NCBI GenBank assembly: GCA_028819305.1
Contig: JAPPLY010000078.1
Coordinates: forward strand, 1-46,111
DNA: 46,111 bases
Reading direction: 5' to 3'
Source of the DNA: Bdellovibrionales bacterium
GTDB taxonomy: Bacteria; Bdellovibrionota; Bdellovibrionia; Bdellovibrionales; UBA1609
Both the position numbers and the translations under genes were made by a program. Shown here one piece after another: positions 137 through 42,994 of this stretch (its first letter is position 1; every line of letters starts with the position of its first letter). Under the pieces are notes generated by a model. It was given only the letters and a program-made list of their open reading frames with translations. It was not told the DNA's origin and did not search any database.

Positions 137-321
137 TGCTTTTCCTTTTGTCCCCATCGGGTATTTTATTTTTCTGTCAATTTTTTGTTCTTTTCTCCGG
201 GGCAGCTAAGCCTTTAAATCTGGAATTTTCAAACACGACTGGTATATATAGGTGAGTTACTTTATAGGTTTAGCAAATGTTTGAAAAGTTGTTTGAATAG
301 CTTTAACACAATACAGCAGAT

Positions 322-10774: not shown

Positions 10775-11683
10775 TTATTCTTTTTGTAGTCTAGTCACTT
10801 TAAATTGTGGTTTTCTTTTTTCTAAAAAAGCGCGCATTCCCTCTTTAGAATCTGGAGATTTGAATAATTGACCGAAGGCTTCTGCTTCTTTTTGCAGACG
10901 ATTTTTTAGAGTTAAGTTATCTTCTTCATGTATCAGTTTTTTTGACTTTATTACACTTAAAGGGCTTCTTTGTTTTATATCCTCTGCTAGTAAAAAAGCG
11001 GTTTTCATTAGTTTCTCCGGGGAGGTTATTTTGTTACCCAGACCCATTGTAAAAAATTCCCGGGCGGAATAAATCTTTCCAAAACAAATAATCTCTTTAG
11101 CTTTATACATGCCTACAGCTCGTACTAACCTTTGTGTGCCTCCAAAGGCCGGCAGCAGACCGAGGGTGACTTCAGGCAAACCCATTTTTGCAGCTTCACT
11201 TATTACAAGGATGTCACAAGCTAAAGCTAATTCCATTCCTCCACCTAAGGCAAAACCGTTTATGGCTGCGATGACAGGAATAGGAAGAGACTCTATTAAT
11301 GAAAACACTTTTTGACCTTGTTTTGAAAAAGCTATCGCTTGTTTCTGATCGAAATTCACCATTTCTTTAATATCCGCTCCAGCTACAAAACTTTTTCCAG
11401 CTCCTGTAATAATTAAAACATGTAAGTTTTTTTCTTTTTTATACTGATCTTGTTTGATCCCCGCTTTCGCGAGGACAGGTTTTGTGGTTTCTGTGAGCTT
11501 TTTATCAAGGGGCAGTGGAGTTAGGAATCCGCCATTTTCTGACTTGTTCGATATAATTTGTTCTGTAAAAATTTCTAACTCTTCTAATACTTTAGAGTTT
11601 AAAGCGTTTAAGGCACGGGGTCGGTTGATAGTGAGTACGGCTACCTTATTTGATAATTCAAATTGTAAATATTGAAATTTCAT
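10775..11683 (-). CDS. Enoyl-CoA hydratase with an in-frame palindromic-element insertion
   Basis: This is a crotonase-fold hydratase of 302 aa; family members are about 260. The oxyanion-hole and catalytic regions are intact: FVAGADIKEM, then ALGGGMELALACD with the first catalytic Glu, and GLPEVTLGLLPAFGGTQRL with the second. It would hydrate 2-enoyl-CoA, here plausibly methacrylyl-CoA in valine breakdown given the neighbouring hydrolase and dehydrogenase. Residues about 43-82, which are absent from typical family members, are encoded by a palindromic element (11439-11556) and include KPVLAKAGIKQDQYKK. They fall in the surface loop between LEELEIFTEQI and LHVLIITGAG. The frame is preserved. 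The start at 11683 has only a weak ribosome binding site. Confidence 0.88.
   Translation of the reverse strand: MKFQYLQFELSNKVAVLTINRPRALNALNSKVLEELEIFTEQIISNKSENGGFLTPLPLDKKLTETTKPVLAKAGIKQDQYKKEKNLHVLIITGAGKSFVAGADIKEMVNFDQKQAIAFSKQGQKVFSLIESLPIPVIAAINGFALGGGMELALACDILVISEAAKMGLPEVTLGLLPAFGGTQRLVRAVGMYKAKEIICFGKIYSAREFFTMGLGNKITSPEKLMKTAFLLAEDIKQRSPLSVIKSKKLIHEEDNLTLKNRLQKEAEAFGQLFKSPDSKEGMRAFLEKRKPQFKVTRLQKE
11439..11556. repeat. Palindromic element inserted in-frame in the enoyl-CoA hydratase gene
   Basis: On the plus strand the copy starts TTATACTGATCTTGTTTGA, followed by the hairpin core CCCCGCTTTCGCGAGG. It ends GACTTGTTCGATATAA, giving imperfect inverted termini. It is 118 bp, lies wholly inside the coding region and adds about 40 residues. 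Confidence 0.8.
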
Positions 11684-11831
11684 ATATTTATCTTAACATT
11701 GTGTAGGTACACAATTTACACAAATATTAACTATTGCTTTTCCCTCTATATTCTTTTGATGGAGGGTGTAAGTATTCTTTACATCTGCAAGATATCACAT
11801 TTCAAATCGGATCGGTATAAAAATAGATGCT

Positions 11832-13145
11832 TTAAAGCTCTTGTAATGGATTTATCCAACCAGGATCGTAGCAAAAATATTGTTGTATTTTCTCCTCTGT
11901 GAGCAACTCTACTGAGTTCGGTTTCCACACGGGGGTGCTGTTTTTTTCCAATAGTAAAGCTCTGACCCCTTCAGAGAATTCAGATCCTCGAGCAAAATTA
12001 AGAGCTAAAACCAAGTCAGTTTGAAAAACCTCTTTTAAAGTTTTGTTTCTAGCTCTTTTTAATTGTTCGCAGATGATTCCGGCGGAAGTAGGAGACCCCT
12101 GGAGAAAAGCTTTTCGGTTTTTCTCCCATTTTTTATCTTTTTCTATAAGGCTGTCATAAAATTTTTTATGAATATTTTTTATACTAAAACAATGTAAAGT
12201 TTCTGGTCGTACTTGAGTGTCTGTTGGTCTTATTTTTTTAGAGTTTATAGAAGTAGGTTCTCGTAAAAAAGGAGATAAACTCTCCAGGTTGAGTTTGTTT
12301 GATTTTAATAAGGATGTAATGTTATCTTTTTGTTTTTCAATCCAATTTTCCGCAAGTATATCAGCCTGGTTTGAGCTTTCTGGCCTTCTCTTCGGAACAG
12401 AAGTCCCCAAGGGAACAGAAGGCTTCTGCAAGGGTGCCATTTTTATATTGGTTCGATATGTGTTCGTCTTTTGAAGTTTTTTTAAAATCAAAGTCATCTC
12501 CTCTTTATTTGTAAAAAAAGAGGAGATAAGATTTTGAAGTACTTTTTCTTTTTCTGTATTTTTAAAATAAAAGTTAGCCATGCCCAAGTTTTGAGCCTCT
12601 TGATAATTGATACGGCAGCCAGTTAAAGCCAGGTACAAACCTATTCCCTCTGGCAAGCGGCTTAAGGTGTGGCTCACTCCCACATCCGGAAAAAAACCAA
12701 TATTTATTTCTGGCATAGATAAAGAAGAATCTTCTGTCATTATCTTATGAGAGCTAGCTAGAAAAAGCCCTAATCCCCCTCCCATAATAAAACCATGTCC
12801 CCAGGTAATGATAGGAAAAGGATAGGTGTGCATAAGGTAATTCAGACGGTATTCATTTTCAAAAAAAGTTTGAACAGCCTCTCCCGGATCTTTATTGTTC
12901 TTTCGGGCTAGTAGAATGGCCGAATAAATATCTTTTATATCTCCTCCGGCACAAAAAGCTTTGTCTCCTTCTCCGTGTAAAAATACAGCCGACAAATTAG
13001 GGGTTTTTTTCCATTGATTGAGCTTATTTTTTATCTGTAAAATCATTTCCAGATCTAAAGCATTTAAAGCTGCCGGTCGATGGAGTTTTATTTCCGCCAG
13101 GAAAGAACCATCGGGTTTGGCATGTTCTTTAAAAATGACCTTCAT
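11832..13145 (-). CDS. 3-hydroxyisobutyryl-CoA hydrolase-like crotonase, with palindromic-element insertion
   Basis: This 437-aa protein belongs to the HIBCH branch of the crotonase superfamily, which releases 3-hydroxyisobutyrate from its CoA ester in valine degradation. Diagnostic parts are CAGGDIKDIY, ENEYRLNYLMHTYPFPIITW, GGGLGLFLASSHKI, SMPEINIGFFPDVGVSH and, near the end, EFSEGVRALLLEK-(x5)-WKP. The family is about 350-380 aa. Residues about 229-263 derive from a palindromic element (12357-12459). A second, unclear insert may lie around 12180-12230. Both fall between the crotonase core and the C-terminal helices. The gene is followed by the enoyl-CoA hydratase gene and preceded by the acyl-CoA dehydrogenase gene, all on the same strand with 140-150 nt gaps. 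Confidence 0.85.
   Translation of the reverse strand: MKVIFKEHAKPDGSFLAEIKLHRPAALNALDLEMILQIKNKLNQWKKTPNLSAVFLHGEGDKAFCAGGDIKDIYSAILLARKNNKDPGEAVQTFFENEYRLNYLMHTYPFPIITWGHGFIMGGGLGLFLASSHKIMTEDSSLSMPEINIGFFPDVGVSHTLSRLPEGIGLYLALTGCRINYQEAQNLGMANFYFKNTEKEKVLQNLISSFFTNKEEMTLILKKLQKTNTYRTNIKMAPLQKPSVPLGTSVPKRRPESSNQADILAENWIEKQKDNITSLLKSNKLNLESLSPFLREPTSINSKKIRPTDTQVRPETLHCFSIKNIHKKFYDSLIEKDKKWEKNRKAFLQGSPTSAGIICEQLKRARNKTLKEVFQTDLVLALNFARGSEFSEGVRALLLEKNSTPVWKPNSVELLTEEKIQQYFCYDPGWINPLQEL
12357..12459. repeat. Palindromic element inserted in-frame in the hydroxyisobutyryl-CoA hydrolase gene
   Basis: The plus-strand left end TATATCAGCCTGGTTTGA matches TTATACTGATCTTGTTTGA, and the right end TATTGGTTCGATATG mirrors it. 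The interior has GAACAGAAGTCCCCAAGGGA, close to the trmB copy (AAACAGAAGTTCCCAAGG). The copy is about 103 bp and adds about 35 residues. Confidence 0.7.
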
Positions 13146-13290
13146 TTTATAACCTGTTAAGGAGATAATAATATTGTTTCAAAAACTGGCATGAGTTAAA
13201 ATAAAATAGGAGTGTTTATGGGTAACAAATATCAACTTAAAGCTCCTAACCTGTAATCTATTCTGTAATTTTTGTAACATATTCCAACAC

Positions 13291-17344: not shown

Positions 17345-17381
17345 TATGTTTTCTCCTGTTAATAATCCAAATATAAATATA

Positions 17382-17534
17382 TTATACCATTATAGAAGCC
17401 CCCCCTTCGAATCTCTCTTTTTTTGGAAAAAAAAGAAGAGGACCAAAACCTTATCCCCAAGAGACTTGTTTTCGTCCACCGCTTTCGCGGGAGCAAAGTC
17501 GCGAGGATAGGGAGTCAAACCCGGACTGATATAA
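17382..17534. repeat. Palindromic element copy (intergenic)
   Basis: The left end is TTATACCATTATAGAAGCC. The core hairpin ACCGCTTTCGCGGGAGC lies near 17478, and the right end is GTCAAACCCGGACTGATATAA. Both ends match copies inside genes (compare the hydrolase copy). It occupies the promoter-side spacer of the VWA-like lipoprotein gene. Confidence 0.7.
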
Positions 17535-17640: not shown

Positions 17641-17766
17641 TTATACCGATCATTCCCTACTCCCCCCCTTCGCGAAAACAAGTTTCGTGGGGATAAGGTT
17701 TGAAAATTTCGGGTTTAAAGGCTTAACTAAAAAGGGGACGGGAAGCCACCTAAGTGGTTTTTCGTT
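17641..17766. repeat. Palindromic element copy with trailing hairpin (intergenic)
   Basis: The left end TTATACCGATCATTCCC is followed by CCCTTCGCGAAAACAAG. A hairpin unit ACGGGAAGCCACCTAAGTGG then resembles ACGGAAAGCCACTAAAGCGG at 25641. The right terminus is not clear. It fills the spacer between the VWA-like lipoprotein gene and maf. Confidence 0.5.
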
Positions 17767-18613: not shown

Positions 18614-18885
18614 AGTATATTGATCTTATTTGATCCCCGCGGAAGCGAGGACCTAGTAGCTATGGAGGAGAGTGATTTATTAGTAAATGTGTCCTTCAGT
18701 AAAACAGATTTGCCTTTTTCGGGACGGCCCTTGTCTTTCTTGGTAGAAAACCAAGGGCCTTGGACCCTCAACCGGCAAACTGTTTTCCTGAATGAATACA
18801 GTTAGACGAGAAGGCAATGATTTGCCTTCCCGTCCCTGCGAAAGCCCTGTCATCCCCGCGGAAGCGAGGATCGAGGGGTTTTATA
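18614..18885. repeat. Composite of palindromic elements (intergenic)
   Basis: The left end TATATTGATCTTATTTGATCC runs into CCCGCGGAAGCGAGG. Two further hairpins follow: GAAGGCAATGATTTGCCTTC (18811-18830) and CCCTTG...CAAGGG (18729-18755). CCCTGTCATCCCCGCGG and TTATACTGAATGGGG close the region. It separates maf from the divergent serS and may influence both promoters. Confidence 0.6.
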
Positions 18886-20394: not shown

Positions 20395-20490
20395 TATACT
20401 AACCTTGTTTGAATGTTGTTATTTCTGTCAATTTCTTCCCAAGGATGAACGGAGTTCGGAGGGCGCAAATTCCATACCAGATCGGTATAC
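20395..20490. repeat. Palindromic element copy immediately upstream of lgt
   Basis: The left end TATACTAACCTTGTTTGAATG and right end ATACCAGATCGGTATAC are family termini. The interior has TTCTTCCCAAGGATGAACGG. The frame is open through the element into lgt, so it could encode an N-terminal extension if translation starts at the ATG at 20445. Confidence 0.7.
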
Positions 20491-20501
20491 ATTGCAGTTA
20501 T

Positions 20502-21560
20502 ATGGCAGCATGGACTTATTTCCATAATTTGGATCCTTTTATTATTCATTTTACAGGCAACTTTGGTCTTCGTTGGTATTCCATGGCTTATATCATGGGA
20601 TTTTTATCGGCCTACTATTTAATTTGTTGGTTAATACATAAAAAGATCACCCCCTTATCGAAGAAAGATGTAACTGATCTTATTGTTTGGGTGGCTTTCG
20701 GAGTTATTTTAGGGGGCCGATTGGGTTATGCTCTATTTTACGATCAAGAGCTTTTAACAAAATTTGATTCAGCCTTTCCTTATTGGGAGTTTCTTAAAAT
20801 TTATCACGGAGGATTAGCTAGTCATGGGGGTATTATAGGCTTGATTGTAGCTGCTGCCTTGTTCGCCCGAAAACGGGGCTTTTCTACATGGCACTGCCTG
20901 GATTTATGCGCTTTAGGTGGCATAGGTGTTTTCTTTGGAAGAATAGCTAATTTTATTAACGGAGAGTTATTTGGGAGGGTTATTGAAGGGAAGACTTTAT
21001 TAGCTGTACAGTTTCCCCAGGAAATGCTTTTGTGGGTGTCTCGAAAAAAGATAGAGTATTTACAAGATTTAGATAAAGCTGTTTCTGTTTTGAAATCGGG
21101 CACAAGTGCCGACACCTGGCGAAATTGGATTTATCAGTTTGAATCTACAGGTGAGTATAGAAGACAAATTTATTCTCATATCTATTCTTTGATGCAGGCT
21201 TGTGAAGATGGAAATCGGGAGGTGATTCAGGCTTTAAAGGAAGTGATATCCTATCGCCATCCTTCTCAAATTTATCAGGCTATTTTGGAAGGCTTATTGC
21301 CGTTTTTAGTGGCCTGGTTTTTATTTGTACAGAATCGGTCTAATCAAAAAAAATATTTAAAACCAGGAATAATCGGGGGTGTTTGGGCTTTATCGTATGG
21401 AGTTATGCGTGTATTGGGTGAGCAGTTTAGAATGCCAGATGCGCACTTAGGTTTTCAAGCTTTGGGTTTGACTCGAGGACAATGGCTTAGTGTGTTTATG
21501 TTAGTATGTATTGCCGGTTATTTCTTTTTAGTTTTTAAAACTCAAAAAACCAAAAAGTAG
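20502..21560 (+). CDS. lgt: Prolipoprotein diacylglyceryl transferase
   Basis: This inner-membrane enzyme transfers diacylglycerol from phosphatidylglycerol to the lipobox Cys of prolipoproteins. It serves the many lipoproteins of this window. LRWYSMAYIMGF, YHGGLASHGGIIG and RIANFINGELFGR carry the conserved His, Gly and Arg/Asn of the family; RHPSQIYQAILEG and the last helices are present. The frame is open from 20409, but the upstream part is a palindromic element, so the ATG at 20502 (MAAWTYFHNLDPF) is chosen because the known fold starts there, although no good ribosome binding site precedes it. About 90 residues separate NGELFGR from RHPSQ, against about 40 in E. coli. The extra loop is charged and helical. 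Confidence 0.9.
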   Translation: MAAWTYFHNLDPFIIHFTGNFGLRWYSMAYIMGFLSAYYLICWLIHKKITPLSKKDVTDLIVWVAFGVILGGRLGYALFYDQELLTKFDSAFPYWEFLKIYHGGLASHGGIIGLIVAAALFARKRGFSTWHCLDLCALGGIGVFFGRIANFINGELFGRVIEGKTLLAVQFPQEMLLWVSRKKIEYLQDLDKAVSVLKSGTSADTWRNWIYQFESTGEYRRQIYSHIYSLMQACEDGNREVIQALKEVISYRHPSQIYQAILEGLLPFLVAWFLFVQNRSNQKKYLKPGIIGGVWALSYGVMRVLGEQFRMPDAHLGFQALGLTRGQWLSVFMLVCIAGYFFLVFKTQKTKK

Positions 21561-31319: not shown

Positions 31320-31362
31320 TTTTATAACGAACCGATATAATCTAATTTGACCCTGTGTAAAT

Positions 31363-31480
31363 ATATCAATCTTGTTTGAAAATTTCAGATTTAAAGACTT
31401 AATTACCCAGGAAAGGATCGAAAAGTTTAGGGAAAAGCTTGTTCCCGTGGAAGAGGGGATAAGCCCTAATAGGTGTTCTG
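31363..31480. repeat. Palindromic element copy between argS and ddl
   Basis: TATATCAATCTTGTTTGAAA matches the family left end, and AGCTTGTTCCCGTGGAAGAG is an internal hairpin arm shared with copies at 5240 and 39594. An element right-end motif, AACGAACCGATATAATC, lies at 31326-31342, before this copy, suggesting two overlapping remnants. Confidence 0.5.
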
Positions 31481-39335: not shown

Positions 39336-39593
39336 ACGAATACTTTATGCAGATATGGTTTTAAGATGAAAAGAATTACATTTTGATACTAATAAGATAT
39401 TATTACTGAGACCAGAAAGTGAAGATTGGTGTGAAAAGTTTTCACTATTTTTAAATAATTCCAACTGTGTTTTTAAAAATCCTTTTGACACTAAGTATTA
39501 GTTTTGTTTTGTTGACTCCTGTTTTGCATATACAGGGTTTCCAGTGATCTGCTTTAGATATTAATAATAAATCAGTTAGGAAATCTCCTCTTC
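39336..39593. other. Spacer, nothing recognised
   Basis: This is AT-rich sequence between the 48-bp repeat and the palindromic element. No gene is supported. Confidence 0.4.
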
Positions 39594-39722
39594 AGAGGTT
39601 CTCTTCCATTGGAGAGAAGCTTCCCGTGGGGAGAAAAAAAAGAAACACATGGAACGAACTTTGTCTCTGTGAAGCTTGTCCCCGTGAAAACGGGGAGCGG
39701 AGATCAAACCGGATGGGTATAA
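39594..39722. repeat. Palindromic element copy upstream of a lipoprotein gene
   Basis: GTCCCCGTGAAAACGGGGAGC (39679-39699) is a hairpin shared with 5250. The right end GATCAAACCGGATGGGTATAA matches the trmB copy (CGAATGGGTATAA when read on the coding strand). The left part has AGCTTCCCGTGGGGAG. It ends 27 nt before the next start codon. Confidence 0.65.
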
Positions 39723-42090: not shown

Positions 42091-42140
42091 CTAAACGGGA
42101 AGGCAAGTTGTTATCTTCCCGTCTCGCTAAAGTGAGAATC
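42091..42140. repeat. Hairpin of the GGAAGGCAA family with Z-arm
   Basis: ACGGGAAGGCAAGTTGTTATC, then TTCCCGT, forms an imperfect hairpin like those at 419-447 and 18809-18834. It is followed by CTCGCTAAAGTGAGAATC, a second hairpin. It lies between the small-gene operon and trmB. Confidence 0.55.
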
Positions 42141-42199: not shown

Positions 42200-42994
42200 T
42201 CATTTGATATATTTTAGATAATGAATGGCTTGTTTTTTCCTGATAAAAATTTTTTCAAACTGAGTTATACCCATTCGATTCTGGATCCTCGCTTTCGCGA
42301 GGACAGGGTTTTCCAATCGTCTCTTTTTTTCTCCAAAGGAAACAGAAGTTCCCAAGGAAAAAGAGTCTTTAGAGGGCACAATCTCCTGACCGGTTCGGTA
42401 TAAATCATCAGAAAACCTAACTTCTTTATAAGAACTATTTTTGAAAATGGTATGAATTTCTTGAAAATACTCTTGGTGATCTGTTTTAATTTCTATAAAA
42501 GAGTTTTTTTCCTGAAGCTGGTAAAGTGTTTTAACAAAATCCGGTTTTATTAAACGGTGTTTATGGTGTCTTTTTTTAGGCCAGGGATCTGGAAAGTGAA
42601 TATAAATATTATTTAGCTCTTTAGGGGCAAAAACATCTCCTAACATTCGAGCATTATACCTGATTGTTTTTGCATTTAAGCATTCACTTTCTTTTATTTT
42701 CCGGGTGGTTTGAATCAAAGGTTTATATTTAAGTTCCATTGCTATAAATAAGCGATCTTTATTGTGAGTAGCTATAAAAGAGAAAAAATCCCCCGTTCCT
42801 GGTCCAATTTCTAGATCTAACTTTGTGTTTTTAGGTGCATTAAAAACCTGTGTCCTCCACTTACCTTTAAACTGTAAACCATCTTCTTCATCGAAGACCC
42901 ATGAGGAGTATTTATTATACATATCTGTTACATAGGAACTAGGATGTAAAAGAGACTTACTGTGAACTAATTTAGTTTGGGCGCCCTTGGACAA
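42200..42994 (-). CDS. trmB: tRNA (guanine-N7-)-methyltransferase with in-frame palindromic-element insertion
   Basis: This enzyme makes 7-methylguanosine at tRNA position 46. LEIGPGTGDFFSFIA binds SAM, and IHFPDPWPKKRHHKHRL is the family hallmark. FVKTLYQLQEKNSFIEIKTD and the end ITQFEKIFIRKKQAIHYLKY complete the fold. TrmB is usually 210-240 aa; this one is 264. The excess is residues about 197-244, lying between DDLY and ITQFEKIF and encoded by a palindromic element (42265-42404). That segment includes GTSVSFGEKKRRLENPVLAK, of which PVLAKA recurs in the enoyl-CoA hydratase insert. The ATG at 42994 overlaps the end of aceE by 28 nt, so the two may be translationally coupled. Confidence 0.92.
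   Translation of the reverse strand: MSKGAQTKLVHSKSLLHPSSYVTDMYNKYSSWVFDEEDGLQFKGKWRTQVFNAPKNTKLDLEIGPGTGDFFSFIATHNKDRLFIAMELKYKPLIQTTRKIKESECLNAKTIRYNARMLGDVFAPKELNNIYIHFPDPWPKKRHHKHRLIKPDFVKTLYQLQEKNSFIEIKTDHQEYFQEIHTIFKNSSYKEVRFSDDLYRTGQEIVPSKDSFSLGTSVSFGEKKRRLENPVLAKARIQNRMGITQFEKIFIRKKQAIHYLKYIK
42265..42404. repeat. Palindromic element inserted in-frame in trmB, most complete copy
   Basis: The plus-strand left end is TTATACCCATTCGATTCTGG, followed by the perfect hairpin CCTCGCTTTCGCGAGG. The middle motif is AAACAGAAGTTCCCAAGG, and the right end is GACCGGTTCGGTATAAA. Length 140 bp. The ends are inverted copies, and the whole copy is translated on the minus strand as part of TrmB. Confidence 0.85.

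Follow-up and report, generated by a model that had tools for sequence, protein, structure and literature searches.

The window is the whole 46,111-nucleotide stretch analyzed here, contig JAPPLY010000078.1 (assembly GCA_028819305.1) of a Bdellovibrionales bacterium with a draft genome of ~2 Mb (93% complete, 88 contigs). The trmB gene for tRNA (guanine-N7-)-methyltransferase lies at 42200..42994 on the minus strand and was identified by its ORF, Pfam, PDB sequence and fold matches, and orthologue alignment. Its ORF (42203-42994) has 264 codons with a TTG start and is closed by a stop codon at 42200-42202. The product matches Pfam Methyltransf_4 with E = 1.2e-34 and PDB TrmB chains by both sequence and fold. 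The ORF stays open across a segment at 42266-42402 that is flanked in the product by DDL on one side and TQFEKIF on the other, and 21 trmB residues remain after it. A separate 40-bp REP-like palindrome, AAACGGGAAGGCAAATCGTTGCCTTCCCGTCCCG, occurs at positions 417-456, 18804-18843 and 42093-42132 of the window, one of them just downstream of trmB.

The segment is a complete 137-bp MITE copy of a repeat family termed family A (TATACC...GGTATA; 42266..42402, plus strand), as determined by family alignment, a covariance-model match with E = 1.8e-24 and the open-frame reading. The initial annotation had placed a complete element with both ends at 42265-42404, and both ends were found within 1-2 bp of these positions. 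The ends are 14-bp inverted repeats, TATACCNNNCCGGT. Comparison of the ends shows that the left terminal inverted repeat, TATACCCATTCGAT (42266..42279, plus strand), differs at 2 positions from the 15-bp consensus of left ends in the family, and that the right one, ACCGGTTCGGTATA (42389..42402, plus strand), matches the family end motif exactly. Alignment and folding locate an optional GC-rich hairpin module, TCCTCGCTTTCGCGAGGA, at 42286..42303 (plus strand), which is missing in 95-bp forms of the element, and an imperfect core palindrome, GTCTCTTTTTTTCTCC...GGAAAAAGAGTC, at 42319..42367 (plus strand; z about -2.7). The RNAalifold consensus for the family consists of 5 pairs only, and a conserved RNA fold is not claimed. 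The trmB frame reads the minus strand of the element as LYRTGQEIVPSKDSFSLGTSVSFGEKKRRLENPVLAKARIQNRMGI, and DSFSLGTSVSFGEK is an example of a peptide predicted from the translated insert.

A 160-bp query from the trmB segment found 42 places in the same genome. A covariance model built from 20 family-A copies gave at least 149 matches with E ≤ 1, of which about 140 had E < 1e-3; 150 candidates were scored, which makes the copy number a lower bound, and the E-values are rough owing to short model calibration. The best E-values of the same model in two same-genus genomes were 0.0056 and 0.06, which is noise level. The right-end motif occurs 226 times in this genome versus 7 times for the reversed control, and the repeat thus greatly exceeds chance expectation. 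Family-A copies share the ends, the core palindrome and the optional hairpin module, and most are 90-175 bp long. These properties are those of a MITE: short, multicopy (about 140), bounded by terminal inverted repeats and without a transposase gene. In some copies the unit GGGAACA(G/C)A(A)GT(C)CCCAA is tandemly expanded (L155:2700-2866; L151:2848-2978).

The window holds five more family-A copies. A second copy (11440..11555, plus strand) lies in frame in an enoyl-CoA hydratase gene (ORF 10778-11692, minus) with a net gain of 38 codons = (116-2)/3, and the covariance model and ORF reading place a third (12357..12460, plus strand) in frame in a gene of the 3-hydroxyisobutyryl-CoA hydrolase/enoyl-CoA hydratase family (ORF 11835-13178, minus). 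Two copies are diverged: one at 17378..17533 (minus strand; covariance-model E = 4.4e-5) is not open-frame within a gene, and one at 20395..20489 (plus strand; E = 7.5e-5) overlaps the edge of ORF 20403-21557 and has an in-frame stop between open flanks. The copy at 39563..39721 (minus strand; E = 1.8e-9) is intergenic. A different repeat, family B, is about 95 bp long (TATACC...GGGTATA, core TTTGAAAATTCCGGCTTTAAAAGCTTAGCTACC) and was seen at 34 places among the stretches read, including window positions 153-246, 17698-17735 and 31362-31436 and L131:3054-3148; some of its copies in genes are translated as NSGFKGLA..KRKE..S.GK.

The surroundings of 140 family-A copies were read, with C50:3193 and C83:707 left out, and a copy was scored as in an ORF if it was open-frame and flanked on both sides by 30 residues or more. 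By this measure 50 copies are open-frame in ORFs, 18 are near an ORF end (including the trmB copy) and 72 are outside. The occurrence in trmB is part of a wider pattern, with about 50 ORFs of the genome carrying family-A copies. Hosts with NCBIfam names include RimM, AroE, RNase Y, PurH, MurI, KsgA, FabH, TilS, GcvP, GuaA, MutY, NadE, AroB, BamB and the two enoyl-CoA hydratase-like genes in the window. Many hosts are housekeeping enzymes, with TilS, GuaA, FabH, MurI and PurH among the single ones. Reading is from the same strand in 40 of the 50 in-ORF copies, mostly in two frames; some near-start copies read in sense may precede the true start codon. Several translated repeats per protein were noticed in GuaA (L143:603-2492), GcvP (L170:5-3304), NadE (L142:775-2607) and an AroK-AroE fusion (L128:736-3393). 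GuaA further contains SFPRKRESS-type peptides, which are translated from a CCCGCTTTCGCGGG-like repeat, and the AroK-AroE fusion contains a block of roughly 20 residues, PKGFCLANFPNVLNFHNQNK, three times in tandem.

Length equals 2 mod 3 in 46/50 in-ORF copies compared with 26/72 copies outside, a contrast that is partly circular in that the definition of an in-ORF copy itself requires an open frame. The circularity is avoided when a copy is taken to be in a gene if both 50-codon flanks are open. There are 47 such copies, of which 38 are in frame and stop-free, 7 are frameshifted and 2 contain a stop. Of the copies outside ORFs, roughly 13-32% are open in any given frame, which by our estimate puts the chance expectation of intact copies at about one in ten. 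Random points of the same stretches fall in an open frame about 62% of the time; the elements are therefore depleted from genes but by no means kept out of them. Selection that preserves the frame and removes stops would make sense only if the segment is translated.

The element was absent from the orthologues of all 8 host genes that could be aligned, among 10 tried, in same-genus or same-family genomes; no orthologue was recovered for RimM and GcvP in the scripted comparison. In the orthologue alignments, RNase Y, PurH, GuaA, FabH and the enoyl-CoA hydratase each show a net gain of exactly (length-2)/3 codons. A clean gain could not be measured at MurI, KsgA and TilS, where the junctions are too variable. 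These five gains are consistent with a TA duplication at the target site; trmB, with a gain of 33 rather than 45 residues, is the exception. The empty site is not readable at the DNA level because the relatives are too diverged.

The trmB exception was examined against the TrmB of a same-genus genome (G002), which reads L-QKDAHLNENNFI-TPFE where the product here reads L-45 residues-TQFE. The 137-bp element codes for 45-46 residues and the net gain over the G002 protein is 33; therefore, ~12 native loop residues, QKDAHLNENNFI in G002, are gone from trmB. The initial annotation described a pure addition of ~47 residues, and this is replaced by 45 residues gained, ~12 lost and a net change of +33. 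It also described a normal TrmB before and after the insert. The protein is otherwise intact and keeps 34/36 highly conserved columns, those shared by 26 or more of 27 orthologues. A near-invariant Asn (26/27 orthologues) inside the replaced segment accounts for one of the two columns that are lost, and TrmB is therefore not wholly normal around the insert. With that one exception, sequence, fold and conserved residues all identify the product as TrmB. The insert occurred in none of the TrmB orthologues of the bacterial family that reach the region, the gene in G001 ending earlier at a contig end, and the alternative that distant orthologues share its residues is not borne out.

AlphaFold2 modeled the TrmB core with confidence and gave residues 203-229 a pLDDT <50. 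The insert is thus a low-confidence loop, although its low pLDDT is in part to be expected, since it is covered by no other row of the alignment. The model has the conserved helix at 245-252 and the strand at 258-263 in place beyond the insert, in line with the position proposed for it immediately ahead of the last conserved helix. Despite the insert, an intact TrmB fold is predicted. Against G002, dN and dS in trmB are 0.26 and 2.9 (dS saturated) upstream of the insert and 0.16 and 0.92 downstream; dN is well below dS on both sides, but this signal is mostly older than the insertion.

The following course of events would account for these data. An element with the ends TATACCNNNCCGGT would have burst to at least about 140 copies in this species, and a TA dinucleotide in trmB would have received one non-autonomous MITE copy. 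The ~12 native residues would have been lost with or after the insertion, one possibility being a later deletion between TATA-like sites, and the loop that precedes the last conserved helix would now consist of the element peptide. Copies would persist in conserved genes when their length minus 2 is divisible by 3 and their host frame is stop-free, because they only add a peptide that is tolerated; in trmB, the insert is probably translated and the enzyme activity retained. TA-bounded inverted ends, a net gain 2 bp short of the element's length and the lack of coding capacity together point to a MITE moved in trans, presumably by TA-type transposition with a transposase that may now be lost or unrecognized. 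Searches of this genome for DDE_3, Y1_Tnp and DDE_Tnp_1 did not find a transposase with matching ends: DDE_3 and Y1_Tnp are absent. DDE_Tnp_1 (IS4-type) was rejected as the mobilizer, being represented by one decayed gene in two frames at a contig end (G000:C84:1-900, L266) without the element's terminal repeats. A lost parent element is common for MITEs. We assign a probability of about 0.8 to the trmB segment being a TA-inserted MITE copy kept in frame as a tolerated peptide, with ~12 native residues lost.

Three other explanations were weighed against this one. The initial annotation had considered that the segment is either tolerated or removed. Removal from the RNA, by an intron or translational bypassing, or from the protein in an intein-like manner would produce mature TrmB without the segment, and the element does fold somewhat better than shuffled sequences (z about -2.7). 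The 38/47 in-gene copies that are in frame and stop-free argue for translation over removal, which would not require either property; the Rfam scan of the window gave 0 matches at the gathering score and shows no intron, inteins are much longer than these inserts, and no intein-like ends were seen in the translations. Tolerance is the favored half of that pair, and removal is very unlikely. Nor is it probable that the inserted peptide is useful, a conserved and selected module supplied to many proteins. The preference for one strand and mostly two frames (40/50 in-ORF copies) would fit such a module, but the copies are read in several frames, their internal sequence shows poor conservation, and 72/140 of them are outside ORFs. 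In other species, the elements that share these ends differ in their interiors and are mainly found outside genes. This explanation, too, is very unlikely.

Decay of trmB and the other hosts has somewhat more to recommend it, although it too is improbable. The insertions would then mark relaxed selection in a shrinking genome with many inactive products, as the draft size of about 2 Mb, the ~12 conserved-loop residues gone from trmB and the 9/47 flank-defined in-gene copies with a frameshift or stop might suggest. Against this stand the single housekeeping enzymes among the hosts (TilS, GuaA, FabH, MurI and PurH), the frame kept in 38/47 copies and the 34/36 conserved TrmB columns retained. 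A tolerated, translated MITE copy is the better account of trmB, and, as in the known case of Rickettsia, translation of transposon DNA into proteins is apparently tolerated in this genome.

Family A was not detected in 46 other genomes of the bacterial family except for two weak matches in one of them (G061). A longer end motif, TATACYRATCCKGTTTGA, allowing at most 2 mismatches, is abundant in 4/141 genomes of the order, with 152 occurrences in this genome, 331 in G030, 419 in G061, 125 in G024 and 0-8 in the remaining genomes; the element was found only within this order, the range examined. G024, G030 and G061, all of the same bacterial family, carry many same-ended elements, mostly outside genes, and the interiors differ between the species that share the ends. 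The G030 elements are palindromes of about 222 bp with CTGTGTCAAAGCCGAACTCA-type cores and an open frame in 4/23. Same-ended pairs lie in ORFs in 13/41 cases in this genome versus 3/46 in the other three (Fisher p = 0.004, one pairing rule), the samples being not fully equivalent because the stretches of this genome were chosen for holding family-A copies; this is the matched-method figure, and the sharper contrast of 50/140 versus 1/40 in ORFs comes from different detection methods. Tentatively, one species may have derived, from a MITE lineage with fixed TA-bounded ends in its bacterial family, a gene-compatible form that is short, frequently 3n+2 in length and readable in two antisense frames. 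This form would have colonized coding sequence, with same-ended elements elsewhere in the family staying largely outside genes. If true, interior readability rather than host tolerance decides where such elements live. Relatives with the same ends mostly outside genes offer a natural comparison for what lets selfish DNA live in proteins, and a warning follows that gene annotations, alignments and structural models based on genomes of this kind include transposon segments in translation.

In-frame colonization of conserved genes by repeats is best known from Rickettsia and Wolbachia; here it concerns another phylum and roughly 50 insertions. Three sources describe Rickettsia palindromic elements (RPEs) and Wolbachia protein-coding palindromic repeats in frame within conserved protein genes, whose reading frame stays unbroken (PMC3767692, PMC2229807, PMC10969869). 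One of them reports guanylate kinase with an RPE to be translated and active in Rickettsia and lists RPE target duplication as unknown (PMC2229807). RPE-1 to RPE-3 above all, and the Wolbachia repeats, resemble family A as palindromic elements of about 100-150 bp, with several families per genome, that sit in frame. The in-frame placement in conserved protein genes that characterizes RPEs was found for 50/140 copies, or 38/47 by the flank definition. Unlike RPEs, family A belongs to a different phylum, has the ends TATACCNNNCCGGT and shows a length relation that fits TA duplication, and it is called RPE-like for its placement in genes and not classed as an RPE. An RPE-like, protein-invading MITE family is the best reading and is apparently unreported in this phylum. 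The open-licence literature searched yielded no link of Bdellovibrio or Bdellovibrionota to such elements; a 2024 review calls it conceivable that MITEs shape proteins similarly in other prokaryotes (PMC10969869).

QMITE1 and QMITE2 of Coxiella burnetii are present in dozens of copies per genome, some in frame in ORFs, with direct repeats variable in sequence (2-3 or 7-11 nt); known genes are affected mostly at their ends, and the in-frame insertions reported from the middle of ORFs concern hypothetical proteins (PMC5896051). They resemble family A in being multicopy and in some in-frame placements, and differ in the variable direct repeats, the gene-end effects and the hypothetical nature of the mid-ORF hosts.

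Family A shares TA-bounded ends of the Correia type. Correia elements (CREE/NEMIS) of Neisseria are by reputation mostly intergenic regulators, whereas about a third of family-A copies are inside ORFs, many of them of conserved enzymes. Correia elements are MITEs with TA at their termini and >100 copies (PMC2229807). Their 107-bp form has open frames and is fused to ORFs, and the 155-bp form, with stop codons in every frame, is found almost only between genes (PMC2229807, Delihas). This split parallels the one between the readable elements described here and the mostly closed-frame elements of G030.
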